Shown here: piece after piece, positions 1-10,001 of the stretch
Numbering within the stretch: the stretch's first letter is position 1
Layout: every line of letters starts with the position of its first letter
Source: Candidatus Dojkabacteria bacterium
GTDB lineage: Bacteria > Patescibacteriota > Dojkabacteria > B142 > OLB20
Length of the DNA stretch: 10,001 bases
Direction of reading: 5' to 3'
Assembly (NCBI GenBank): GCA_020429485.1
Contig: JAGQLK010000030.1
Coordinates: forward strand, 1 to 10,001
The notes under the pieces: generated by a model
The model's database searches: none
Told to the model about the DNA's origin: nothing
The model's input: only the letters and a program-made list of their open reading frames with translations
Made by a program: the position numbers and the translations under genes

Positions 1-2
1 CA

Positions 3-131
3 GGCATAGGTGAGGCTACCGCAAATAAAATAATACAGGCTAGGCCCTATACAGAGTTAGAAGGGTTAAAAGACGTGTCTGGAATAGGCGATAGTACCTA
101 TAACAAAATCGTAACATTAATATCATTGTAG
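3..131 (+). CDS. comEA: ComEA-like helix-hairpin-helix protein, C-terminal end only
   Basis: The window opens inside a gene; the last 42 codons are visible and end in TAG. They encode two helix-hairpin-helix motifs, GIGEATANKI near the start and SGIGDSTYNKI near the end, joined by a short 'RPYTELEGLKDV' linker. This is the pattern of the (HhH)2 domain at the C-terminus of ComEA, the DNA receptor that binds incoming double-stranded DNA and hands it to the ComEC channel. HhH hairpins contact the DNA backbone without sequence specificity. comEC begins only 9 bases after the stop, so the two are probably one operon, which supports the ComEA call. The N-terminal anchor lies outside the window. Another HhH protein cannot be excluded from this fragment alone. 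Confidence 0.72.
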   Translation, partial: GIGEATANKIIQARPYTELEGLKDVSGIGDSTYNKIVTLISL

Positions 132-140
132 TTCGATGCT

Positions 141-1667
141 ATGATAATTATCTCAAAAAGATTCGAGCATATGATTTCATCAATAAGCTCTTATCCATTA
201 ATCTTAGTCTGTATCCTCTGCGGTGCAAACATGGCGTTAGATTTGCTTGCGGTTCCGCTTGTGCTTAGATTGATCTGTATATGTGTAGTAACCCTGATTT
301 TCTCTTACAAGAAATCTGTTACATTTTTCATTCTGTTCTTTACTGTTATAGGGTTGTTGCGAATTGATCAAAGAAATAATACTGATCTACAACATGTATA
401 TAATTATTTAAATAATGATTGTGAAATTATTGCAGAAGTAATTTCTTATCCATATGAAAAAGGGGATAAAATAATTTTCACTTTGCGACCAAAGCAAATA
501 AAATTCTCAGATAGTATATATGAAATTTCATCCGGTAATATTCGAGCTGAAGGATGGAAATATTCTGAGATAAAAAAGGGTGATGTGATCAAATTTGAAA
601 CTTTTTTAGAAGCTCCAGAAAATTTTGACGATTTTGATTATGTTAATTATTTAGAGAATCAAAATATTTATGGAGTGGCAGAAGTTCCTCCTTGGTATGA
701 GTTAATAGATGTTGAGCGAAATTTGTATCTAGTTTTTATAGGTGATCTACGCACAAGTATTATTGAGTACTTTAGGAAAGTTCTACCTGAACCACATGCA
801 AGTCTGATGTTAGGGATGCTTATAGGAACAAGAGAGGAGTTTGAAGATGAGTTTGCAGTTGCTCTTTCCAATACAGGCACAGCACATATAATTGCTGTTT
901 CTGGGTTTAATATTAACATCATCATTATTATGCTACTTAGTTTGGCAGGTAAGCTACCAAGGAAGTTTATTAACGTTACAAGCTTTTTCATTATCTTTGC
1001 ATTCTGTTCTTTAGTAGGTTTTGATAATCTTCCAGCTTTACGAGCAATGTTAATGGGTTATTCTGTAGTTATTGCAAATATGTTTGGTAGAAAGTCTATG
1101 GTATGGTCGACTCTACCTGTTGCATTCTTAGTTATGTTTTATCAGAATCCCTATGTAATTTTTTCGCTTAGCTTTCAATTATCTTTTGCTGCGACTTTAG
1201 GACTAATATTAATTTCTGAACATGTAAGCTGGCTTATTCCTTTTAATGGTACAGTTTCTGACGAGTTGTCAGTAACAATCGCTGCTAATATAGCAACGTT
1301 TCCAATTATTTTTAGAAGTTTTGGGAAAATTAATTTCTGGTCACCACTTGCTAATATAATAGTTGGCCCAATGATTCCAATTGTTATGTTATTAGGAGTA
1401 GTAGAGTATCTTTTAGCTCTGGTTAATAGGCAAGTGGCTATGCTAATTAATTACTTATCTTGGTTGAGTCTTGAATATATCGTTTTAGCAATTTCATATG
1501 TTTCTAAGATGCCATATTCGGAGATCCTGATTCAGAATAATCTTGAACGAATTAGTATTGCTTACATTATTATATTGCTAGCTTTTATTTTTGAATTAAG
1601 TTATCGGAAACATGTTCAGAATTTTACTGATACTAATCCTAGTAACGATATTAATAGTGGTAACTAA
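141..1667 (+). CDS. comEC: ComEC/Rec2 DNA-uptake channel, membrane part
   Basis: This 508-residue polytopic membrane protein is the likely inner-membrane channel for single-stranded DNA in natural transformation. Residues 18-75 are hydrophobic (first membrane segments). Residues about 90-185 form the soluble DUF4131-type domain, including 'GDVIKFE' and the 'FDYVNYLENQNIYG' stretch. From about 210 the Competence domain begins, with LGMLIGTREEF (224-234), the signature IAVSGFN (251-257), PALRAM (298-303) and SPLANIIVGP (401-410), followed by further membrane helices to about 480. The ATG at 141 is chosen because it directly follows comEA; a second ATG at codon 11 is possible. No Shine-Dalgarno sequence is visible. 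The C-terminal metallo-beta-lactamase domain of many ComEC proteins is absent here and lies in the overlapping next gene, so this is the short form or one half of a split gene. Confidence 0.92.
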   Translation: MIIISKRFEHMISSISSYPLILVCILCGANMALDLLAVPLVLRLICICVVTLIFSYKKSVTFFILFFTVIGLLRIDQRNNTDLQHVYNYLNNDCEIIAEVISYPYEKGDKIIFTLRPKQIKFSDSIYEISSGNIRAEGWKYSEIKKGDVIKFETFLEAPENFDDFDYVNYLENQNIYGVAEVPPWYELIDVERNLYLVFIGDLRTSIIEYFRKVLPEPHASLMLGMLIGTREEFEDEFAVALSNTGTAHIIAVSGFNINIIIIMLLSLAGKLPRKFINVTSFFIIFAFCSLVGFDNLPALRAMLMGYSVVIANMFGRKSMVWSTLPVAFLVMFYQNPYVIFSLSFQLSFAATLGLILISEHVSWLIPFNGTVSDELSVTIAANIATFPIIFRSFGKINFWSPLANIIVGPMIPIVMLLGVVEYLLALVNRQVAMLINYLSWLSLEYIVLAISYVSKMPYSEILIQNNLERISIAYIIILLAFIFELSYRKHVQNFTDTNPSNDINSGN

Positions 1668-2445
1668 CCACGTTAGGTATTCTGATAATATACTAAGCGT
1701 ATACTATCTAGATATAGGGCAAGGAGATTCTTCCTTGATAGTCACGCCTGATAGTATTGATATTTTGATTGATGCTGGACCAGATAAAGAAGTTGTATAT
1801 GAACTTTCCAAAGTCTTAAATCATGAAAATAGAAAAATTGAACTTTTAGTATTAACTCATAATGATTATGACCACATCGGAGGTGTTATAGAGTTGCTTG
1901 AAAGATATGAGATAGGAATGATTATTGCTGATTTTGAAAACTATAATTCTATATATGCAGAGCGGATGTACGAAATTATTAGAGAGAAGGAAATACCTCT
2001 ATACTTAGCAGATTCCGAATCGGATATGCAAATAGGTTGTTGTGTATATATGGACTTCTTGTGGCCACTAAAAGATAGTAATTTTCATGATTTGTCTGCA
2101 AACGATAGCTCAATAAGTGTGAATATTGCTTACAATGATATAGATTTTTTATTTGACGGAGATCTCTCTTTTGAATATGAAGAGAGAATGCTAAATGGCA
2201 GAACAAGAGAGATCGAGGTGCTCCAAGTGTCTCATCATGGAAGTAAGACAGGGACAAGTTTAGAATTTCTTGAATTAACTAAACCTAATATTGCAATAAT
2301 ATCTGCTGGAAAAGACAATAAATTTGGACATCCTCATCAAGAAGTATTGGATGCCTTAAGCCAGTATGCAGTGGAAGTTATCAGGACTGATCAACTAGGC
2401 AGTATTAGAGTATCCTCGGATGGTATTGATTACTGGGTTAATTAA
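1612..2445 (+). CDS. ComEC-type metallo-beta-lactamase-fold hydrolase
   Basis: The 277-residue product matches the metallo-beta-lactamase domain normally fused to the end of ComEC, where it is thought to degrade or process the non-transported DNA strand. Residues 3-18 are a membrane helix. Then come YYLDIGQGDS (31-40), the metal-binding motif THNDYDHIGG (82-91), the aspartate strand FDGDL (181-185), SHHGS (207-211) and FGHPHQ (239-244). The C-terminal RTDQLGSI (258-265) is also typical of the ComEC version. All metal ligands appear intact. The gene overlaps comEC by 56 bases in the +1 frame. The helix before LDIGQGD corresponds to the linker helix of full-length ComEC, so the ATG at 1612 lies almost exactly at the expected join. 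It is either a genuine split with translational coupling or a single-base frameshift in one long comEC. A later GTG at 1657 would remove the helix and is less likely. Confidence 0.87.
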   Translation: MFRILLILILVTILIVVTNHVRYSDNILSVYYLDIGQGDSSLIVTPDSIDILIDAGPDKEVVYELSKVLNHENRKIELLVLTHNDYDHIGGVIELLERYEIGMIIADFENYNSIYAERMYEIIREKEIPLYLADSESDMQIGCCVYMDFLWPLKDSNFHDLSANDSSISVNIAYNDIDFLFDGDLSFEYEERMLNGRTREIEVLQVSHHGSKTGTSLEFLELTKPNIAIISAGKDNKFGHPHQEVLDALSQYAVEVIRTDQLGSIRVSSDGIDYWVN

Positions 2446-2471
2446 GGCGATTTTAATTGCTCATGTTTTTC

Positions 2472-2480
2472 TGCTAAAAT
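2472..2480 (+). promoter_or_regulatory. possible extended -10 promoter for the kinase block
   Basis: TGCTAAAAT fits an extended -10 element (TGnTATAAT, one mismatch in the hexamer). It lies in the 67-base gap after the metallo-beta-lactamase gene and would start transcription about 26 bases before the thymidylate kinase ATG. No good -35 hexamer stands at the right distance (TTTTAA at 2451-2456 is the best). AT-rich TAATAT at 2493-2498 is an alternative that would give an almost leaderless mRNA. The call rests on sequence similarity only. Confidence 0.3.
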
Positions 2481-2512
2481 ACCCGCAACTCCTAATATAT
2501 TAAATTTGCTTT

Positions 2513-3139
2513 ATGTTTATTCTGCTAGAAGGAATAGATGGCGCCGGTAAAGGTCATCAAAGAAATAATCTTGTTCAGCATTTACAAGGTAAGGTTAATA
2601 ATTTAGTAACAGTCGACTTTCCCGACCACAATGGTGCTCTCTACCAGCATTTGATTCATCCAGCTATTCACGAAGAGATTAAAATGTCGAGTGAATCACT
2701 GTTTTTAAGTTTTGCACTTGATCAAAGCCTTTGGCAAGATCGGATCGAGGCAAGTCTTACTTCTAAGGATGAATACTTTATTACTGATGGATATTTCACA
2801 ACTGCTATTGTTTATCAATGCATAATGGGAGAGGTTATAACAATTGATGAGGCTTTGACTTTTGCGAGAACTTTTGGAATTCATCAGCCCGACTTTGCTG
2901 TTTATATTGACGTAGATCCTGAAGTGGCAATGAAAAGAAAAATGATTGAGGAGGGACATGATGAAGGATTAGATATATTCGAAAGAGACATTGAGAAGCA
3001 GCAAAAGATTAGAGCAGGTTTTAAGCATTTAGTTAAGAACAATATCTTTGGAAATTGGGTAGAAGTAGATGGTAATGAGAGTATAGAAGATGTATTTGCT
3101 CAGATTACTGATGCTTTAAATAAGCATAAAATTATTTAA
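2513..3139 (+). CDS. tmk: thymidylate kinase family protein (dTMP kinase-like)
   Basis: This 208-residue protein is the usual length for thymidylate kinase, which phosphorylates dTMP to dTDP with ATP in the cytoplasm. The N-terminal strand and P-loop read FILLEGIDGAGKG (2-14), followed by VDFPDHNG (34-41), which resembles the 'FP' form of eukaryotic-type enzymes rather than bacterial 'REPGG'. YFITDGYFTTAIVYQ (88-102) lies where family members have 'DRYxxSxxAYQ', and YIDVDPEVAMKR (131-142) matches the strand before the lid. DIFERDIEKQQKIRAGF (154-170) is the typical helix after the lid. Two key positions are unusual: the P-loop reads GKGH rather than GK[ST][ST], and the DR arginine is glycine 93. 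It may therefore be an active divergent enzyme or a related nucleotide kinase of other specificity. Two nucleoside diphosphate kinases directly downstream in the same direction support a nucleotide-salvage role. ATG is preceded by no Shine-Dalgarno sequence. Confidence 0.77.
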   Translation: MFILLEGIDGAGKGHQRNNLVQHLQGKVNNLVTVDFPDHNGALYQHLIHPAIHEEIKMSSESLFLSFALDQSLWQDRIEASLTSKDEYFITDGYFTTAIVYQCIMGEVITIDEALTFARTFGIHQPDFAVYIDVDPEVAMKRKMIEEGHDEGLDIFERDIEKQQKIRAGFKHLVKNNIFGNWVEVDGNESIEDVFAQITDALNKHKII

Positions 3140-3157
3140 TTTTTTATTTTATTCACT

Positions 3158-3760
3158 TTGCAAAATTTACCAAGCATAGAAAAAACATTCATGATGATCA
3201 AGCCAGATGGGATAAAAAGAGGTCTCGTTGGTGAAATTTTCATGAGGCTAGAGCGTGTTGGCTTAAAATTAGTTGCTTCGCGAATGATTCAAGCTACAGA
3301 AGAACAGGCAAGAGGTAATTATCCAGGAACAGCAGAATGGCTAGTTGGTATGGGTGAAAAAACCTATACAAATTATGATCATGATGACAAAGCAATTCTT
3401 AAAGATTTAGGCACAACTGACAAATTGGAAATCGGTAAAAAAATCTATGATGCGCTTGTTGATTATTTGACTGAGAGCCCAGTTATTTTAATGGTATGGG
3501 AAGGTAATCACGCTGTAAGAGTAGTAGAGAAAATCTGTGGCAAGACAGATCCTACTCTTGCTGATATCGGATCTATCAGAGGTGACTTTGGTTTTGATAC
3601 AGCACAGCTAGCTGTAAAGTCTGGAAGAGTAGTTTTTAAAACACTGGTACATAGATCAGATAGTGCTGAAGAAGCAGAAAGAGAGATTAAGCACTGGTTT
3701 GGTGACAAATATAAGTATCTTGGAGAATATTCAAGGGTTGATTATATTGGTTCTTTCTAA
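3158..3760 (+). CDS. ndk: nucleoside diphosphate kinase, long form (copy 1)
   Basis: The 200-residue protein belongs to the nucleoside diphosphate kinases, which transfer the gamma phosphate of ATP to other (d)NDPs through a phosphohistidine. The fold-defining TFMMIKPDGIKRGLVGEI (10-27), MVWEG (112-116), SIRGDF (139-144) and LVHRSDSAEEAEREI (163-177) are present. Lys15, Tyr55, Thr130, Arg141 and catalytic His165 correspond to canonical active-site residues. The usual NDK has 130-150 residues; here a stretch after 'NYPGTAEW' (about 60-100) and another between GDF and the histidine are enlarged. The position normally holding the phosphate-binding Arg88 is Glu124, and the Asn three before the histidine is Thr162. 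The TTG at 3158 is chosen because no ATG, GTG or other TTG lies between the in-frame tmk stop and the essential first strand. Copy 2 follows after 21 bases. Family assignment is secure; substrate preference is not. Confidence 0.88.
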   Translation: MQNLPSIEKTFMMIKPDGIKRGLVGEIFMRLERVGLKLVASRMIQATEEQARGNYPGTAEWLVGMGEKTYTNYDHDDKAILKDLGTTDKLEIGKKIYDALVDYLTESPVILMVWEGNHAVRVVEKICGKTDPTLADIGSIRGDFGFDTAQLAVKSGRVVFKTLVHRSDSAEEAEREIKHWFGDKYKYLGEYSRVDYIGSF

Positions 3761-3781
3761 ATTAATTTAAAGAATAAAAAG

Positions 3782-4390
3782 ATGGATTTCGAAAAAACAT
3801 TAATAATAATAAAACATGACGGCGTAGCTAGAGGAATAATGGGTAAAATTATTTCTAGATTTGAAAATGCTGGATTAAAATTAGTTGGCTTAGAATTTAT
3901 TCAAAGTACTGATGATCTTGGACAAGCTCATTATCCAGATTCGAACGACTGGCTAGAAACAGTAGGTAATAGAACTCTTACTGATTACGAGGAAAGAGGG
4001 CGTGATGCAAAAGAAGAATTTGGTACAAATGATCCGATAGAGATTGGTAAAGCAGTAAAAGGTTGGTTAGTTGAGTATTTAGCTCAAGGTCCAGTTCTTG
4101 CAATGGTCTGGGAAGGTCCTGAAGCAGTTAAAATAGGTCGTAAGTTAGTAGGTGGCACTATTCCTGCTAAGGCAGATCCTGGTACAATTCGAGGTGATTT
4201 TTCAGTAGATAATGTTGAGTTAGCTAATAGACATGGTAGACCATTCTATAATCTGATTCATGCATCGGGTGAAGTTGCAGAAGCAGAGTTAGAGATCGAA
4301 TTATGGTTTGGTGGAGATGAGTTGTTTAAATACGATACTAATTCAACAAAAATCATGGGACAACAAGGAAAAGTGCTAAAAAACAATTAG
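3782..4390 (+). CDS. ndk: nucleoside diphosphate kinase, long form (copy 2)
   Basis: This 202-residue paralogue of the preceding gene shares the same enlarged layout. It has KTLIIIKHDGVARGIMGKI (5-23), AHYPDSNDW (49-57), MVWEG (108-112), GTIRGDF (134-140) and NLIHASG (157-163). Lys11, Tyr51, Arg120, Thr126, Arg137, Asn157 and catalytic His160 all align with the canonical active site, so this copy is the more complete of the two. Departures are His12 in place of the proline of 'KPDG' and Gly163 in place of the aspartate of 'HGSD'. A polar tail of about 25 residues extends beyond the usual C-terminus. The ATG follows an A-rich stretch without a clear ribosome site, 21 bases after copy 1. A strong terminator lies 20 bases past the stop, so this is the last gene of the kinase block. 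The tandem pair probably arose by duplication and could form mixed oligomers (inference). Confidence 0.89.
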   Translation: MDFEKTLIIIKHDGVARGIMGKIISRFENAGLKLVGLEFIQSTDDLGQAHYPDSNDWLETVGNRTLTDYEERGRDAKEEFGTNDPIEIGKAVKGWLVEYLAQGPVLAMVWEGPEAVKIGRKLVGGTIPAKADPGTIRGDFSVDNVELANRHGRPFYNLIHASGEVAEAELEIELWFGGDELFKYDTNSTKIMGQQGKVLKNN

Positions 4391-4410
4391 ATCTAAATCC
4401 TAAAATAGAC

Positions 4411-4446
4411 AAAGAGTACATTATCGATGTACTCTTTTTTATTTTT
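4411..4446 (+). terminator. intrinsic terminator of the kinase block
   Basis: AAAGAGTACAT (4411-4421) and ATGTACTCTTT (4427-4437) form a perfect 11-base-pair stem around the 5-base loop TATCG. The 3' arm runs into a T-rich tract (4435-4446, interrupted by one A). This is a textbook Rho-independent terminator for + strand transcription. The opposite orientation has no good T-run, so it probably works in one direction only. It separates the kinases from the TrmB-reductase gene, which therefore needs its own promoter. Confidence 0.92.
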
Positions 4447-4479
4447 AGCTGAGCTAGTAGTAGACACATGCTACTACTA
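4446..4479 (+). promoter_or_regulatory. inverted repeats, candidate operator upstream of the TrmB-type gene
   Basis: TAGTAGTAG (4455-4463) and CTACTACTA (4471-4479) are a perfect 9-base inverted repeat with a 7-base spacer. A small palindrome, TAGCTGAGCTA, sits at 4446-4456 on its left edge. No T-run follows on either strand, so it is not a terminator. CATGCTAC inside the repeat (4467-4474) recurs in reverse orientation as GTAGCATG at 4513-4520, overlapping the proposed -10 element. A dyad just upstream of the -35, ahead of a gene with a winged-helix domain, fits an operator for autoregulation. That role is inference. Confidence 0.45.
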
Positions 4480-4489
4480 ATATACCTTA

Positions 4490-4519
4490 TTGACAATGTT
4501 ATACAGGAGATGGTAGCAT
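4490..4519 (+). promoter_or_regulatory. probable promoter of the TrmB-reductase gene
   Basis: A perfect -35 hexamer TTGACA (4490-4495) is followed after 18 bases by TAGCAT (4514-4519), which carries the extended -10 TG one base upstream (TGGTAGCAT). Transcription would begin near 4526, giving a leader of about 17 bases before the ATG at 4543. An alternative is the extended -10 TGTTATACA at 4497-4505, which has no good -35. The position between a strong terminator and the next gene makes a promoter here very likely; the exact choice of elements is uncertain. Confidence 0.5.
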
Positions 4520-4542
4520 GCACTTGTTATTATTGAAGTATA

Positions 4543-6195
4543 ATGGAAATTTTAAAGAAAATTGGCTTAACCTCCAATCAAATCAAAGTTTATAAATACC
4601 TTCTTTCTGAAAAGAAAAAAAGTGGGGCTGAAATAGCACGAGAATTAAAATTAGATAAGTCATCTACTTATAGGGCATTGGATAAACTTAATGAATTAAA
4701 TCTTGTTACTCAGAGCGTGGATCAAGGAGTCTATGTATATACTGCTGCAAATCCTAAAATCCTCAACCAACTTATGGAAGAAAAGAAGGCGAGGTTAGAA
4801 CAAGATGCCAGTCAATTAGATGTTTTCGTCAAAAAGTTAATTGAAGAAAGCGGTAATAGCAATGAGTTCACAAGGTTGAAAATAGAAACTGGACCTTTGG
4901 CACAAAGAGCATCCATGGAAAGATCCATTAAGGATGCTAATACTACTGTGCGTCAGACTTTTACATCAGATTCGCCTGTGTATGATTATCCTGGGTATAA
5001 AGAATTTATTGATGACTTTATCAAAAGAAGAATAAAAAAGAATGTATTTACTAAACAGTTAGTAAAGATGACGACACGATATTATCTAGACGATATTACA
5101 GTTACAAGTGAGGAATTATGCAAAGAAGTACGCATTAAGCCATATGGATTACCACATCAGCACTCATTCAAAATATATGGTGATAATGTTGATATTGTAA
5201 TTTACGATAAAGATCCGGAGAAACTAAAAGTAATTCATATTCAGGATAAAGTAATTTCTACAATAATGGCTGCATTGTTTGATTTTGTTTGGGATAGAAG
5301 CATTGTCTACTATGGTAAACAGGTTTTGCCTCAGAAGAAACTTACTCATGGAGTTACTTTGCCTGTCTTGGGAGTAGGGACATGGGGTGTAGGTGGTTAT
5401 GTAGAGCGTAATCCGTACAACGATGATATCAATGACATAGATCAGCTAAAACATAGCATTAGCTTGGGGCAGACATATATCGATACTTGTTTGATGTATG
5501 GTGGTGGTTATAGTCTGGATCTTATAGCTAAGGCAATTGCTAACTTCCCTAGAGAACAGCTATTTATTACCTCTAAGTTTACATGGCCTGGAAAAATTCC
5601 AGTAAGTGATTATAGAGAAGTAGAAAAGCAATGTGACATATATTTAGAAAAGCTGGGGATTGATTACATAGATATGTATCAAGTGCATGGACCCAAGGTT
5701 TATGATTTTGAAGATGAAATACTGGTATCGGAAATTGAAAAACTTATTGCCAAAGGTAAGGTTAGATATTGGGGAACAGGAAACTTTGAAATAGAGCAAT
5801 TAAAGAAGTTAGTTGAGTTAAGTGATAATCTACCTGTGGCGCATGAGTTGGAGTTTAATCTGATTGAGCGAGAGATCAAAAACAAGGACAATTCAATTGT
5901 TGAATACTGTAGAGAGAAGGGAATACTAATGATAGCATTCAAGCCTATTGCCAGAGGTGCGTTATTCGGCCTTGGAGAAGATGAATCAAAAACTACTCTA
6001 ATGAGTAAATTGACAAAGAAATATAAAAAGTCTTCCGGACAAATCGCAATTAATTGGCTATGTAAACAACCAGGTATGATTGCTATTCTAAAATCTACAA
6101 ACGGAAGTCATATTAACGAAAATGTTGACTCATTTGATTTTGAAATTTCAGAAGAAGATTTGAAGCTATTAGATAACTACAATCTATATAGCTAG
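4543..6195 (+). CDS. TrmB-type winged-helix regulator fused to an aldo/keto reductase
   Basis: One continuous 550-codon frame joins two families. Residues 1-60 are a TrmB/MarR-like winged helix, with AEIARELKLDKSSTYRALDKL (29-49) as the recognition region and a wing at VDQGVYVYTAANP (59-71). A charged, probably coiled-coil helix (73-103) follows. Residues 110-256 resemble the effector/dimer region of TrmB proteins. From 261, LPQKKLTHGVTLPVLGVGTWG begins a full aldo/keto reductase (AKR) barrel. The tetrad is intact: Asp314 and Tyr319 in YIDTCLMYG, Lys345 in FITSK, and His382 in MYQVHGPK. Cofactor-site motifs are FKPIARG (466-472) and LKSTNGSHINEN (516-527); the latter has His where NADPH-dependent enzymes often have Arg. 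WGTGNF (410-415) replaces the usual 'xGxSNF'. The protein is probably a cytoplasmic DNA-binding sensor of NADP(H) redox state or of a carbonyl compound. It has its own promoter region with inverted repeats. Domain identities are confident; the sensing role is inference. Confidence 0.87.
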   Translation: MEILKKIGLTSNQIKVYKYLLSEKKKSGAEIARELKLDKSSTYRALDKLNELNLVTQSVDQGVYVYTAANPKILNQLMEEKKARLEQDASQLDVFVKKLIEESGNSNEFTRLKIETGPLAQRASMERSIKDANTTVRQTFTSDSPVYDYPGYKEFIDDFIKRRIKKNVFTKQLVKMTTRYYLDDITVTSEELCKEVRIKPYGLPHQHSFKIYGDNVDIVIYDKDPEKLKVIHIQDKVISTIMAALFDFVWDRSIVYYGKQVLPQKKLTHGVTLPVLGVGTWGVGGYVERNPYNDDINDIDQLKHSISLGQTYIDTCLMYGGGYSLDLIAKAIANFPREQLFITSKFTWPGKIPVSDYREVEKQCDIYLEKLGIDYIDMYQVHGPKVYDFEDEILVSEIEKLIAKGKVRYWGTGNFEIEQLKKLVELSDNLPVAHELEFNLIEREIKNKDNSIVEYCREKGILMIAFKPIARGALFGLGEDESKTTLMSKLTKKYKKSSGQIAINWLCKQPGMIAILKSTNGSHINENVDSFDFEISEEDLKLLDNYNLYS

Positions 6196-6199
6196 ATCC

Positions 6200-6227
6200 T
6201 TGCAAATTAACCTATACATGTTATATC
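6200..6227 (+). promoter_or_regulatory. possible promoter of the repeat-HTH protein gene
   Basis: In the 56-base gap after the reductase stop, TTGCAA (6200-6205) is followed after 16 bases by TATATC (6222-6227), which has TG one base upstream (TGTTATATC, extended -10 form). Transcription would start near 6234, about 18 bases before the ATG, with no Shine-Dalgarno sequence in the leader. No terminator separates the two genes, so read-through from the TrmB-reductase gene is equally possible. Confidence 0.4.
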
Positions 6228-6251
6228 ATTGCTTCGATAAAAATTTTAGCA

Positions 6252-7754
6252 ATGATGACGGAGTGCGAAGATCAAGAGTCAGATATTTTGAATCAAGATA
6301 TAATTGATGACTTTGTTGGTCGGCTAGTTTTACCAGCTAATTTAGCTAGTGATTTACGTTTATGGGATAAACTTTCTTTTGGCTTTCATAGGCAGTTATC
6401 ACCAGCTACTAGGCTACAAGGATATCAGATATCTTCATGGCTACTTGCAGGTGGAGCTTCTGTAGCAGAAATAGCTAGAGAGCTAGATGTCACTATTCCT
6501 ACAGTAAGATCAACTCGGAATAAGCTTGCAGGAATAATCGCCAATAAAGCTGAGACTGAGGATGAATTTGCAATTGTACGTATTGCACAGTCAGAAGCAA
6601 GAATGATAGATACATTGGCTTCTAGAGGAGTAAGTATTTATGAATTCCCTGATGTTGAAGCAGCTCATTTTTACCAGTTACACTGTGAGGTTCCTTATGT
6701 ATCAAGGCTGTATTTGCTTGAACAGATAGGGCTTGAGCTAGGATATGTTAATACGTATCATTATCGTATAGCCGACCTTGCTTTGCAGGGTGCAACCGTT
6801 GAGGAAACTTGTACAGATCTTGGTATAGATGATCATTCAGAGTTATCGATAAGAAGCGTTTGGTACACAAAAGAAACACTTCACCGTTTTATTAATGATG
6901 CAAAGCAGAGAAATATTTTAAAGGGTAGAATTCAATCACAGAGAAGAATGTATGATCAGACATCAATTCATGAGGGACTACAGACAGCAGGTTTAGACTT
7001 CTATGATTATGACACAATTCATGAAGCTGATAGGATACTTCATGTTCAAGACTTTCGGAGAAGATTTCCAGATAAGGGCATAGATGAGCTATGTGAACTT
7101 GTTGCTGTTTGTACAGGTATGGTAGAGCCTGAAAGATATCATACTTTTTATCAGATGTTACAAGGTGTTCCTTTTAGGGACATAGTAGGTGAAACAGGTG
7201 GCGCGCCAGGCACTCCACCAGATCAGTTTCATTATCAATTTTTAGAGGATCATTTATCTGATGTAGGGGTAATAGCATATGTTGAAGAAAATCAAGTTGT
7301 TGGACTTCTTGATAGACTGGCAAGATACGGCGAATCACTTTATGAATATCCAACATTGAGAGAGGCAAGATATTGTTTAGCAGGTAGGGAATTGAGAGAT
7401 ACGTTGCCTAATATTCATGAAGATGAACTTGCCCAAATAGTGATGAAATTTCTTAAGATGAGGCCACAAAGCTTAGACTCAATTAAACTTGTATTAGCTG
7501 GGATCAAAAGTGATGATGTAGTACCAATGCTAAATGGCAGAACACTAGGGCAGTACCAAAAATTACGAAAAAGAATTTATGATGAATTATTAGCTGATGA
7601 TCAGAAAGTACAAGAATTAATAATGGAGCACCAAAAGAGTGATATATTTATTGGGCAATCAGGAGGTTACTCAATTCTTTATCGATGGAATCCGGTTCGC
7701 AATATGTGGTATAAAATTTATTTGTCTAAACCTAATCGGAGGCAAAATATTTAA
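6252..7754 (+). CDS. unrecognised protein with repeated HTH-like and 'YEYP' units
   Basis: I do not recognise this 500-residue soluble protein. It has no signal peptide or membrane segment. It is built from repeating units. An HTH-like segment is clearest at 64-92 (LLAGGASVAEIARELDV then TIPTVRSTRNKL), similar to sigma region 4 or LuxR-type helices. Weaker counterparts lie near 174-213, 298-335 and 410-446, each introduced by 'LxxQG/LAG'. Between them a 17-residue motif recurs at 122-138, 243-259 and 356-372, with consensus LxxxGxxxYEYPxxxEA. The period is 111-125 residues. The C-terminal 40 residues (IGQSGGYSILYRWNP onward) lie outside the pattern. Multiple HTH-like units suggest a DNA-binding or transcription-related role, but this is inference. 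Two ATGs stand in tandem at the start; neither has a ribosome site. Its stop overlaps that of the convergent acetyltransferase gene. Confidence 0.85.
   Translation: MMTECEDQESDILNQDIIDDFVGRLVLPANLASDLRLWDKLSFGFHRQLSPATRLQGYQISSWLLAGGASVAEIARELDVTIPTVRSTRNKLAGIIANKAETEDEFAIVRIAQSEARMIDTLASRGVSIYEFPDVEAAHFYQLHCEVPYVSRLYLLEQIGLELGYVNTYHYRIADLALQGATVEETCTDLGIDDHSELSIRSVWYTKETLHRFINDAKQRNILKGRIQSQRRMYDQTSIHEGLQTAGLDFYDYDTIHEADRILHVQDFRRRFPDKGIDELCELVAVCTGMVEPERYHTFYQMLQGVPFRDIVGETGGAPGTPPDQFHYQFLEDHLSDVGVIAYVEENQVVGLLDRLARYGESLYEYPTLREARYCLAGRELRDTLPNIHEDELAQIVMKFLKMRPQSLDSIKLVLAGIKSDDVVPMLNGRTLGQYQKLRKRIYDELLADDQKVQELIMEHQKSDIFIGQSGGYSILYRWNPVRNMWYKIYLSKPNRRQNI
6429..7592 (+). repeat. protein-level tandem repeat region (HTH-like / YEYP units)
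   Basis: Within the unrecognised protein, three 17-codon motifs lie at 6615-6665, 6978-7028 and 7317-7367. They encode LASRGVSIYEFPDVEAA, LQTAGLDFYDYDTIHEA and LARYGESLYEYPTLREA. The segments after the second and third motifs also align (for example DELCELVAVCTGM with DELAQIVMKFLKM, and MLQGVPFRDIV with VLAGIKSDDVV). Identity is low, so the duplications are old. The repeats are visible only in the protein, not as DNA repeats. Confidence 0.65.
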
Positions 7755-8188
7755 GGATGTATTAACAGTATATTACTCTCTTGTTTGAAACCATGCTTCT
7801 GCATAAAGTCGCCATATTTGCCACCTGCAAACACTATGATTTTTTCTACATTATTAGTTTGGGCTAAGCTGATTAAGGAATTAAGAAACCTAGTTCCTAA
7901 TCCATCACTTCTAAATTCTCTAAATATGTGAAAGTCAGCAATGTGCCAATAGAGTCTATCTGTTTTATCTGGTTTAGGTATAGGGTGCCACTTATGGACA
8001 CATACGAAGCCTACTTTTTGATCATCTTGCTCATAAAAATAATACTCTCTATCAATTGTGTTATCAGATAAGAAACGCTCTAGAGTTGTGTAATAATCTT
8101 GACTGTCATTTTCGAAAAGGGTACATATGATATTCGTAATTTGAGATATACTATCTGGGGTTAATTCGATTCTAGTAAGCTTTTCCAT
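7751..8188 (-). CDS. GNAT-family N-acetyltransferase
   Basis: The 145-residue protein is the right length for a single GNAT domain, which transfers an acetyl group from acetyl-CoA to an amine. Strand EYYFYEQDDQKVGFVCVHKW (48-67) matches the central sheet. WHIADFHIFREFRSDGLGTRFLNSLI (81-106) is motif A, with RSDGLG (93-98) as the pyrophosphate-binding loop. VEKIIVFAGGKYGDFMQKHGFKQ (114-136) is the motif B region, where 'FMQKHGFKQ' corresponds to the usual 'FYekxGFkx'. The substrate cannot be predicted. It lies 27 bases downstream of tRNA-Arg on the same strand, so it may share that transcript; no Shine-Dalgarno sequence precedes the ATG. It converges on the repeat-HTH gene, with stops overlapping in TTAA. 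Confidence 0.87.
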   Translation of the reverse strand: MEKLTRIELTPDSISQITNIICTLFENDSQDYYTTLERFLSDNTIDREYYFYEQDDQKVGFVCVHKWHPIPKPDKTDRLYWHIADFHIFREFRSDGLGTRFLNSLISLAQTNNVEKIIVFAGGKYGDFMQKHGFKQESNILLIHP

Positions 8189-8215
8189 AAGAATATTTGA
8201 AAAATAACAACTAAA

Positions 8216-8289
8216 TGCGCTAAGTAGGAATCGAACCTACGGCCTAGGCGTTAGGAGTGCCTTGCTCTATCCAACTGAGCTATTAGCGC
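8216..8289 (-). tRNA. tRNA-Arg, anticodon CCT
   Basis: The 74-base minus-strand sequence folds into a full cloverleaf. It has acceptor GCGCTAA/TTAGCGC (7 bp), D stem GCTC/GAGC with loop AGTTGGATA, anticodon loop CTCCTAA, variable region AGGCC, and T arm GTAGG-TTCGATT-CCTAC. The anticodon CCT (8253-8255) reads AGG codons. A20 in the D loop is the usual arginine identity base, and the discriminator is A. The CCA end is not encoded and must be added by a nucleotidyltransferase. The innermost anticodon-stem pair (31-39) is an A-C mismatch; the other four pairs are good. Confidence 0.96.
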
Positions 8290-8320
8290 TTTTAATTGTC
8301 AATGACTTGATTTAAAACTA

Positions 8321-8326
8321 ACTATA
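8321..8326 (-). promoter_or_regulatory. possible -10 element for tRNA-Arg
   Basis: On the minus strand TATAGT lies 31 bases upstream of the mature tRNA 5' end. It would place the transcription start about 25 bases ahead of the tRNA, a normal distance. No convincing -35 is seen (TAGAAT at 16 bases is the best). The rest of the 114-base gap (8290-8403) holds no convincing gene, only the interleaved inverted repeats listed separately. Read-through from the PEGA gene is an alternative, since no terminator follows it. Confidence 0.28.
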
Positions 8327-8330
8327 ATCA

Positions 8331-8384
8331 TGAATGCTGATAATTCTACATTAAAACTAGTAAGGCATTCAAATCAGAATGTAG
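8331..8384. repeat. two interleaved 7-base inverted repeats (pseudoknot-like order)
   Basis: TGAATGC (8331-8337) pairs with GCATTCA (8365-8371), and CTACATT (8346-8352) pairs with AATGTAG (8378-8384). The order A-B-A'-B' would allow an H-type pseudoknot in RNA from either strand. It lies between the PEGA gene stop and the tRNA. No T-run follows, so it is not a standard terminator. Two 7-base matches in 114 AT-rich bases could arise by chance. Confidence 0.25.
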
Positions 8385-8403
8385 TTAAATTTGCTTCTGT
8401 AGC

Positions 8404-9864
8404 TTAATTCTGAGCCTCTAAATCTATTCTATAAAGATTAGTGTTAATTGTAGACTCTGGTGATTCTAATTCATCCTCAAGAGTGATATAGAATTTATCT
8501 CCAGATGAATTAACAGAGTAGGCAAGATTAGCATTAACTAGATCAGTTAAAGCAACTACAACATTATCTCCTTCAGTATCAGTAAATAATATAGTCCCCA
8601 ATTCGCTATCGTAATAAACCAGATTTGCTGATTGTGGCGAGAAACTGATTCTATCGTTTTTATTAAGCTCAATATGGGTACTGGCGAATTTACTTTCGAA
8701 AGAGTTAGTAGCTATTATTTCTTTTATATTAAAAGTGTATGCGATATTTTCTTTTGTGAATATTGCACTATTACCATCAGGTGAAAATTCTACAAGCTCA
8801 AAGCTAGAGTCTGTAATCTGATTAAAGTATTCTGAATCGATATCTACAAAATAATAGCTTTCTGCTGTTTTGAAGATTAGCTTATCAGAGTCATGCATTG
8901 ATGGGATAATCTCTTCAATTGTATTTGGAATAATCTTATTTGAAGTACTTACCAACTGAGGTGTGCCAGAAGAATATGACATTAGTGCGCCGCTATCGTT
9001 AGTAAAATAAACTAGATTATCTGCTATTGCGTAAGTTGTTGTTTCATTGACATCAAGTATGATAATTGTTTTTTGATTATTATTTAGTTGGTACTCAAAT
9101 AGTAGTTCATTATCTTCGATGATTAATGAATCTCCATTTGTAAACCAGTATATTTTATCTGGATTAATGCCAAGTAAAGCATTTATTTCGTATTCCGCTT
9201 CACTATTGAACTCTGTTGCAGAAAATACATAGTTTGAACCATCTTCATGATTTTGCAACAGAAATCTACTGTTATCGTCACTAAAAGCTATATCGTAATT
9301 ATTTTCTGCGATTATAGGTGAGAGAAGGGGGCCAACATTTACTAATTTTTCTGGCTCAGGATTCTGATTGCCGAAAATGAATGCTCCAGTGGTTAATTTA
9401 AGCCTCCATATACCATTAGCACTCGACTCCTTGGCTTTGCTAACCACATAGTATGCATATTGACCATCTGCTGAAAAGTAAGCCCTGTCTATGTTAGTTT
9501 GGGTAACTTGTTCTAAAGAATAAGTAGATGGATAAAGTTTTACATTTACTGTGCTAACGATACCGGGTGTTACGCTGACATTTTTTTCCCATCTTGCGTA
9601 GTTATCGGCTTCTATAACAATATTATATGTACCTTTCTCTAGTTGATTTATTCGATCGTCCTGCAGCTTTACTATTTGTCCATCAACATAGACTGTAAAG
9701 TCTACATTAGGTTCAACATCTACTCTTATTACAGAAGTCTCAACAATACCTTCTTTCGTGATCAATCCGCCGCGTGATATAATAATCGCAAACACGGTTA
9801 TCCCTAGGAAGAATAGGATAGTAAATAGTACTAAAAAAAATGTTATTATTTTATTCTTATTCAT
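8404..9864 (-). CDS. membrane-anchored PEGA-domain protein with predicted beta-propeller
   Basis: The 486-residue product starts MNKNK and has an uncleaved-looking membrane helix at 6-29, so the rest should lie outside the membrane. Residues about 46-112 are a PEGA domain: RVDVEPNVDFTVYVDGQIV, then LEKGTYNIVIEADNYARWEKNVSV. PEGA domains are small surface beta domains of the carboxypeptidase-regulatory type. Residues about 125-480 show repeated blade-like segments such as YFSADGQYAYYVVSK, FSDDNSRFLLQ, FSPDGNSAIFTK and FSPQSANLVYYD, typical of TolB/PD40-like propellers. The architecture is that of a cell-surface or envelope protein of unknown ligand. The ATG at 9864 is preferred over an in-frame TTG six codons upstream, because that TTG lies in the -10 region. 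The gene is divergent from mreB with 40 bases between, so envelope or shape-related roles may be linked (inference). Confidence 0.88.
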   Translation of the reverse strand: MNKNKIITFFLVLFTILFFLGITVFAIIISRGGLITKEGIVETSVIRVDVEPNVDFTVYVDGQIVKLQDDRINQLEKGTYNIVIEADNYARWEKNVSVTPGIVSTVNVKLYPSTYSLEQVTQTNIDRAYFSADGQYAYYVVSKAKESSANGIWRLKLTTGAFIFGNQNPEPEKLVNVGPLLSPIIAENNYDIAFSDDNSRFLLQNHEDGSNYVFSATEFNSEAEYEINALLGINPDKIYWFTNGDSLIIEDNELLFEYQLNNNQKTIIILDVNETTTYAIADNLVYFTNDSGALMSYSSGTPQLVSTSNKIIPNTIEEIIPSMHDSDKLIFKTAESYYFVDIDSEYFNQITDSSFELVEFSPDGNSAIFTKENIAYTFNIKEIIATNSFESKFASTHIELNKNDRISFSPQSANLVYYDSELGTILFTDTEGDNVVVALTDLVNANLAYSVNSSGDKFYITLEDELESPESTINTNLYRIDLEAQN

Positions 9865-9872
9865 AGTGATTG

Positions 9873-9901
9873 AGTATACCAATACTAATTATTTGTAGCA
9901 A
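9873..9901 (-). promoter_or_regulatory. promoter of the PEGA-protein gene
   Basis: On the minus strand TTGCTA (9901-9896) is followed after exactly 17 bases by TATACT (9878-9873), which carries the extended -10 TG (TGGTATACT). The ATG begins 8 bases after the -10 hexamer. Transcription from the usual distance would therefore start at or within a base or two of the start codon, giving a leaderless or nearly leaderless mRNA. This is the best-formed promoter in the window. Confidence 0.65.
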
Positions 9902-9904
9902 TTC

Positions 9905-10001
9905 ATGGCAGGAAAAAAAGTAGCAATTGATCTGGGAACATCTAATTCTGTTGTATCAGTTGTTGGAAAAAAAATAAATATTGTAAGAGAACCTACTGTA
10001 G
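9905..10001 (+). CDS. mreB: MreB-like actin homologue, N-terminal start only
   Basis: Only the first 32 codons are visible, reading MAGKKVAIDLGTSNSVVSVVGKKINIVREPTV before the window ends. IDLGTSNS is the first phosphate-binding loop of the actin/Hsp70 ATPase fold. The short 'VGKKINIVREPTV' that follows matches MreB (usually 'xGKGIVLxEPSV') rather than DnaK, which has a longer, differently placed segment. MreB polymerises under the membrane and guides cell-wall synthesis in rod-shaped cells. The ATG has no Shine-Dalgarno sequence. Its promoter must lie in the 40-base gap shared with the PEGA gene; TACTAA at 9883-9888 is a weak -10 candidate. A paralogue such as Mbl cannot be distinguished. 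Confidence 0.78.
   Translation, partial: MAGKKVAIDLGTSNSVVSVVGKKINIVREPTV

Follow-up and report, generated by a model that had tools for sequence, protein, structure and literature searches.

Domain architecture and setting of the fused gene

The window, by which we mean the whole stretch of 10,001 nucleotides analysed here, comes from a Dojkabacteria genome that is fragmented (246 contigs) and 77% complete. Positions 4543–6195 of the forward strand form a single uninterrupted frame of 550 residues that, by frame, Pfam and alignment, encodes a TrmB-type regulator module joined to an aldo/keto reductase (AKR). A first-pass annotation had read the frame as carrying both parts, and the profile matches bear this out. 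Pfam TrmB (PF01978) matches residues 4–72 (E = 1.1e-12, 48 bits against a cut-off of 25.6), and Aldo_ket_red (PF00248) matches residues 276–545 (E = 5.2e-49), covering profile positions 2–288 of 291. The C-terminal part (AKR domain, 5368–6177, forward strand; Pfam, alignment, fold search) has the features by which the AKR superfamily is recognized, namely PF00248, the barrel fold and the Asp-Tyr-Lys-His tetrad. The tetrad residues are Asp314, Tyr319, Lys345 and His382, at the positions that the annotation had named.

In AlphaFold2 models (full length, mean pLDDT 83 and pTM 0.69; residues 1–256 alone, pLDDT 88 and pTM 0.58), a winged helix-turn-helix at residues 1–70 (4543–4752; Pfam, model and structure match) is followed by a long helix at residues 72–104 (4756–4854), a PLD-like domain at residues 111–251 (4873–5295; model and structure matches) and the AKR barrel from about residue 261. 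The junction, Arg252–Gly277 (5296–5373), was delimited by alignment of the 12 fused proteins described below; all of these parts lie on the forward strand. The model of residues 1–256 contains the winged helix where an HTH fold had been proposed, within residues 1–60. From the models, the long helix is likely a dimerization coiled coil.

Since full-length fold searches listed AKR-fold chains only, the regulator module was folded and searched separately. In Foldseek, the module alone matched TrmBL2 best (E = 2e-13), and the best match outside the TrmB family was at E = 2e-6. The order of winged helix, long helix and PLD-like domain is that of the TrmB family, as judged from the model and from Foldseek and VIA matches to TrmBL2, 3qph and 2f5t. 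TrmB (3qph) aligned to the module up to residue 241 of its 335-residue chain, so the AKR starts where the last part of TrmB would. We note that whole-chain superposition on TrmBL2 and TrmB gave rmsd values of 20–26 Å, with the domains differently placed, and that the Z score for TrmBL2 (13.3) was level with those for PLD nucleases (13.2 and 13.0).

The annotation had described residues 1–256 as a winged helix with an effector region. The winged helix stands by both Pfam and model. Residues 110–252 matched no Pfam family at E 0.1, and the TrmB effector-binding domain (PF11495) had no match at E 0.1 in either the whole protein or residues 110–252; the effector label is therefore a structural one. 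Overall, the N-terminal half is a TrmBL2-like regulator and the C-terminal half is an AKR.

Upstream of the fused gene lie two ndk genes and then a terminator-like hairpin 3' of the nearer one (4411–4437, forward strand). The ndk genes (3158–3760 and 3782–4390) are adjacent and encode diverged nucleoside diphosphate kinases (NDKs) of about 200 aa each. In both, the 135-position NDK profile matches in two separate stretches, so both seem to carry an insertion. The next gene downstream (6252–7754) starts 56 bp after the fused gene. Its 500-aa product matches HTH_23 over a short stretch only (E = 9e-7) and has no hit in NCBIfam at E 0.1.

Gene neighborhoods were compared across fusion loci. An NDK gene lies near the fusion in the window (1–10,001) and in locus L035 (10025–12326), comEC and MBL-type genes lie upstream in the window and in L036 (4873–6904), and the PEGA-type protein of the window (8404–9882) has relatives in L035, so that these three loci share a loose neighborhood. 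L035 also has, separating its fused gene from a standalone TrmB gene, a frame with a Shikimate_DH match (7003–7881, E = 2e-6). In two related genomes, pilin-type genes flank the fused gene on one side and a RuBisCO large-chain gene on the other (L037:7359–11909 and L039:7358–11903; N_methyl and RuBisCO Pfam assignments made in L037), and most genes over 17 kb are common to both and in the same order. No target gene conserved beside the fusion was found among the loci compared.

Distribution and relatives of the fusion

Eleven further fused proteins, each 33%–43% identical to the window protein, bring the set to 12 distinct sequences. Six (P0002–P0007) came from a large protein collection with the window protein (P0001) as query, one (P0016) came from an alignment search, and four came from genomes (P0014 from L006, P0015 from L007, P0035 from L035 and P0036 from L036). 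PF01978 was matched by 11 of the 12 at E 0.001; the homologue P0007 was predicted without its first ~40 N-terminal residues. Scanning genome contigs with P0001 alone found no relative, and scanning them with alignment A1 found 23 loci, with both parts present in L035, L036, L037, L038 and L039.

The protein searches scored the best 7995 candidates by shared words, and the phylum-sample search scored at most three candidates per genome, so the counts of fusions are lower bounds. The intact fusion occurs in at least 3 of 85 genomes of the window's class, and the fusion occurs in at least 2 of 379 genomes of the phylum sample, in 2 of 89 relatives of genome G406 and in 1 of 373 genomes sampled from the class of G406. 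It was found in none of 115 Thermococcus-phylum genomes, a search with no positive control whose empty result shows nothing. One of the 85 class genomes (G044) has the fusion split into three frames. This interrupted gene (L038:7986–9688, on the same contig as G044:C1 and L008) lies beside a divergent TrmB gene and is either a decayed gene or the product of sequencing errors.

In Dojkabacteria the fusion occurs in a complete genome among others, and it extends to a second lineage of Patescibacteria. In a SecY tree of 13 rows, rooted at the midpoint, the L035 and L036 genomes pair (100/100) within a nine-row group (99/98) with WWE3 and Microgenomates rows. None of the three Dojkabacteria-titled rows falls in that group, although one of them is a long branch beside it, and we take this placement to mean that the fusion occurs in at least two lineages. 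The L039 genome has two SecY copies, one on either side of the tree, so its bin may be mixed; the gene order of its fusion contig matches that of the complete genome L037. Fused homologues in Dojkabacteria, the complete genome included, and in a second lineage are independent of one another, which rules out an assembly join of TrmB and AKR and answers the annotation's concern that the two parts might always be separate genes. Separate neighbors do also occur, as described below.

Conservation among the 12 fused proteins is highest in the AKR. Mean pairwise identity was 0.47 for the AKR, 0.44 for the HTH, 0.38 for the PLD-like domain, 0.33 for the junction and 0.30 for the long helix. None of the 12 aligned proteins departs from Asp314, Tyr319, Lys345 and His382, or from Glu435, Lys517, His523, Glu526 and Asn527. 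The linker, whose conservation had been raised as a question, is conserved in length (25–27 residues in 12 of 12) and poorly conserved in sequence.

Relatives of the AKR part include proteins that have lost most of the tetrad. We compared 87 rows in an alignment, on which the tetrad readings depend, and placed 70 of them in a tree that left out six named partial or divergent rows and rows below 100 bits. All 12 fused AKRs have a complete tetrad and Glu at position 435. Fifteen standalone AKR-fold proteins, all from Patescibacteria, lack the tetrad Asp, Lys and His (L014, L015, L018, L024, L042, L043, L046, L047, L048, L050, L051, L052, L056, L074 and L125), and three of these (L015, L051 and L056) lack the Tyr too. 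All 15 have Glu at 435. They form one clade (100/100) and, together with the fused AKRs and the AKR of L041, in which Tyr is replaced by Gln, make up a 28-row group (100/99). Most intact AKRs in the alignment have Gln at 435, in contrast to the fused family, but two Thermococcus AKRs combine Glu435 with an intact tetrad, so this residue is not unique to the fused group. From their aligned sequences, the 15 standalone proteins are a possible family of AKR pseudoenzymes. A homologous gene adjoins the standalone AKR in L043, L046 and L052; it is a D-2-hydroxyacid dehydrogenase by Pfam in L052, for which this was tested.

TrmB and AKR also occur as separate neighboring genes in three loci. The pair in L041 is divergent, with start codons about 60 bp apart. 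The genes in L099 are on the same strand and 6 bp apart, with an AKR that keeps only the Tyr of the tetrad, and those in L066 are on the same strand with overlapping open frames and an intact tetrad. Because the AKRs of L099 and L066 fall outside the fused AKR clade and the TrmB of L041 falls outside the fused TrmB clade, we regard these pairs as parallel or reshuffled associations; TrmB and AKR were apparently brought together more than once. The split pair in L099 was considered as an ancestor of the fusion, which is unsupported given that its AKR is outside the fused clade, albeit on a long branch.

The TrmB tree, built from 32 of 35 rows and including a duplicate of the window protein, placed 11 fused modules and three standalone TrmB proteins (L002, L016 and L082) in one group (99/99), which is consistent with a single origin of the fusion followed by loss of the AKR in these three. 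Many other TrmB-like matches in the class search are frames of about 250–310 aa without an AKR. Beside each of the three standalone genes is a divergent frame on the reverse strand (L002:955–1443, L016:936–1439 and L082:934–1434) whose product of about 160 aa resembles a TrmB effector domain and has no HTH and no Pfam match.

A candidate operator at the promoter of the fused gene

The region at 4446–4520, which the annotation had put forward for binding tests, contains a perfect inverted repeat that is also found in two distant genomes. This repeat, TAGTAGTAG-N7-CTACTACTA at 4455–4479, is a candidate operator of the fused gene itself (repeat search, cross-genome comparison). It ends 10 bp before the TTGACA, at 4490, of a promoter-like TTGACA-N18-TAGCAT (4490–4519, forward strand). 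The promoter scan as a whole found 11 sites against 10.0 in shuffles, which is no excess, and we call this promoter because TTGACA is retained in L035 and L036, not because of the scan count. In these two loci, whose proteins share 38% and 37% identity with that of the window, the element lies 8 and 9 bp before TTGACA, and both have an extra GGTAGTAG half-site immediately 5' of the start codon.

We note that the palindrome is weak when taken alone, since arms of at least 9 bp occurred in 24 of 1000 random sequences of equal length. The operator pattern matches once in the window, where 0.01 matches are expected, and nowhere else in the window's genome at up to three mismatches (reversed control, 3). 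A looser pattern, AGTAGT-N7-15-ACTACT, gave three separate sites each in G000, G405 and G406 (four matches in G406, two being overlapping registers), one in G409 and none in G407 or G408. Reversed controls gave 3, 0, 2, 0, 1 and 2 sites in G000, G405, G406, G409, G407 and G408, respectively. With 10 separate sites against 8 control sites across the six genomes, the looser pattern is not enriched, and the evidence is therefore its placement and recurrence, not the number of sites. One site each in G000, G405 and G406 is in the promoter of the fused gene, for which we calculate a chance of about 4 in 10,000 in each genome (3 x 150 / 1.1 million).

The other sites vary in setting, and we claim no regulon from them in the six genomes. 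One in G000 (C235:9623–9644) runs right up to the start codon of the closest TrmB paralogue, which belongs to the fused clade in the TrmB tree, and another (G000:C188) is about 35 bp before a frame that resembles a NUDIX gene by eye. Three fall inside long frames (G405:C2, G406:C11 and G406:C27), and the remaining sites are in G405:C20 and G409:C1.

Presence of the operator follows the recognition helix. The three operator-bearing proteins have the recognition helix DKSS(T/M)YRAL, and P0014 and P0015, with the helix NRATLYR, have no such element. This correspondence in sequence supports autoregulation of the fused gene, and the fused protein probably controls its own gene. The palindrome is centered about 59 bp upstream of the inferred transcription start, a position that suits activation better than simple blocking, but the start-codon half-site of L035 and L036 might act in repression.

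Possible sensing and catalysis, and comparison with known systems

Given the architecture observed, the conserved tetrad and junction length and the conserved promoter element, we favor, on balance, a one-component TrmB-family autoregulator in which the AKR reads NADP(H) and/or a carbonyl compound in place of the sugar-binding part. A dimer held by the long helix would use its winged helices to bind the palindrome that lies upstream of the fused gene's promoter, while the AKR would hold NADP(H) and/or a small carbonyl compound. Occupancy of the AKR may then shift the placement of the winged helices, with the short junction and PLD-like domain passing on the change, and thereby set expression of the fused gene and perhaps a few others. 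The AKR could plausibly sense redox state or carbonyls, and the relatives that have lost catalytic residues lend this role indirect support. We propose only tentatively the broader claim that this is a new class of Patescibacteria regulator with the AKR as an NADP(H) or reactive-carbonyl sensor, and that the wider AKR clade has moved from catalysis to sensing.

The intact tetrad in all fused members counts against a pure sensor, which would not require its retention. With the tetrad kept in 12 of 12, a bifunctional enzyme-regulator is possible, and a self-regulating (trigger) enzyme is the main rival: the AKR would be a working reductase, and the TrmB module would do no more than tune the enzyme's expression to the supply of substrate or cofactor. 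The AKR is also the best conserved part (0.47 against 0.38 for the PLD-like domain), the gene's own promoter has the only near-full palindrome in the window's genome, and no downstream gene is shared among the loci compared. However, other members of this AKR clade have lost catalytic residues, which indicates that its fold can be kept without the usual chemistry, and Glu435 is present in 12 of 12 where intact AKRs mostly have Gln, albeit with Glu in the two intact Thermococcus AKRs. We consider the self-regulating enzyme unlikely, though a serious contender.

That the PLD-like domain is the sensor, with the AKR a structural or oligomerizing appendage outside signaling, would fit the many standalone proteins of winged helix and PLD-like domain in the class, three of them (L002, L016 and L082) within the fused TrmB clade, but we judge it improbable, as an inert appendage would not be expected to keep the tetrad and the cofactor-loop residues invariant in all 12 proteins. 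Least probable is that the protein is simply an enzyme with an N-terminal module that has lost its regulatory role. Binding to DNA is so far predicted, which leaves room for this reading; against it, the HTH remains well conserved, at a mean pairwise identity of 0.44, and the operator goes with the recognition helix.

If the sensor reading is true, transcription in these small-genome bacteria would be tied directly to an enzyme fold that binds a cofactor, within a single polypeptide, and that fold would read a metabolite or redox cofactor directly. The coexistence of intact and degraded versions in the same AKR clade would then make this an example of an enzyme turned sensor. The candidate operator and the recognition helix make the fused regulator directly testable. 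Among the titles and opening lines of abstracts listed in searches of the open-licence literature other than preprints, none described a TrmB-AKR regulator, in agreement with the annotation, which knew of none. The same searches gave no co-mention of TrmB with the candidate phyla radiation or Patescibacteria, or of Dojkabacteria with "transcription factor."

Compared with known systems, the fused protein is closest in its module to TrmBL2 (PDB 5bqt, 5bpd, 5box and 5bpi), titled an archaeal chromatin protein, which ends after the module, whereas the fused protein continues into the AKR and has a palindromic element at its own promoter. TrmB of Pyrococcus and Thermococcus (3qph, 2f5t) has a C-terminal sugar-binding part where the fused protein, which is without a PF11495 match, has the AKR. 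The annotation's statement that TrmB proteins normally end in a sugar-binding domain is true of these but not of all, as a passage in PMC4158304 describes TrmBL2 and TrmBL3 as being without it. The aldo-keto reductase Tm1743 of Thermotoga maritima (6kik, 5dan) is a separate enzyme without a DNA-binding module; by sequence likeness it has the Lys517, His523, Glu526 and Asn527 of the fused family, but Gln in place of Glu435.

Kv-beta subunits share the AKR fold, but their partner is a potassium channel and not a DNA-binding module, so the likeness in role is one of analogy only; if the sensor reading is true, the fused protein would be their bacterial DNA-binding counterpart. PutA, MocR/GabR and BirA each combine an enzyme or enzyme fold with a DNA-binding domain in one polypeptide, and PutA is a self-regulating (trigger) enzyme for proline use. 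These differ from the fused protein in having other enzyme folds and other HTH families. Set against the PutA type, an active enzyme that binds its own promoter, the fused protein has, at the sequence level, a tetrad and a candidate operator.
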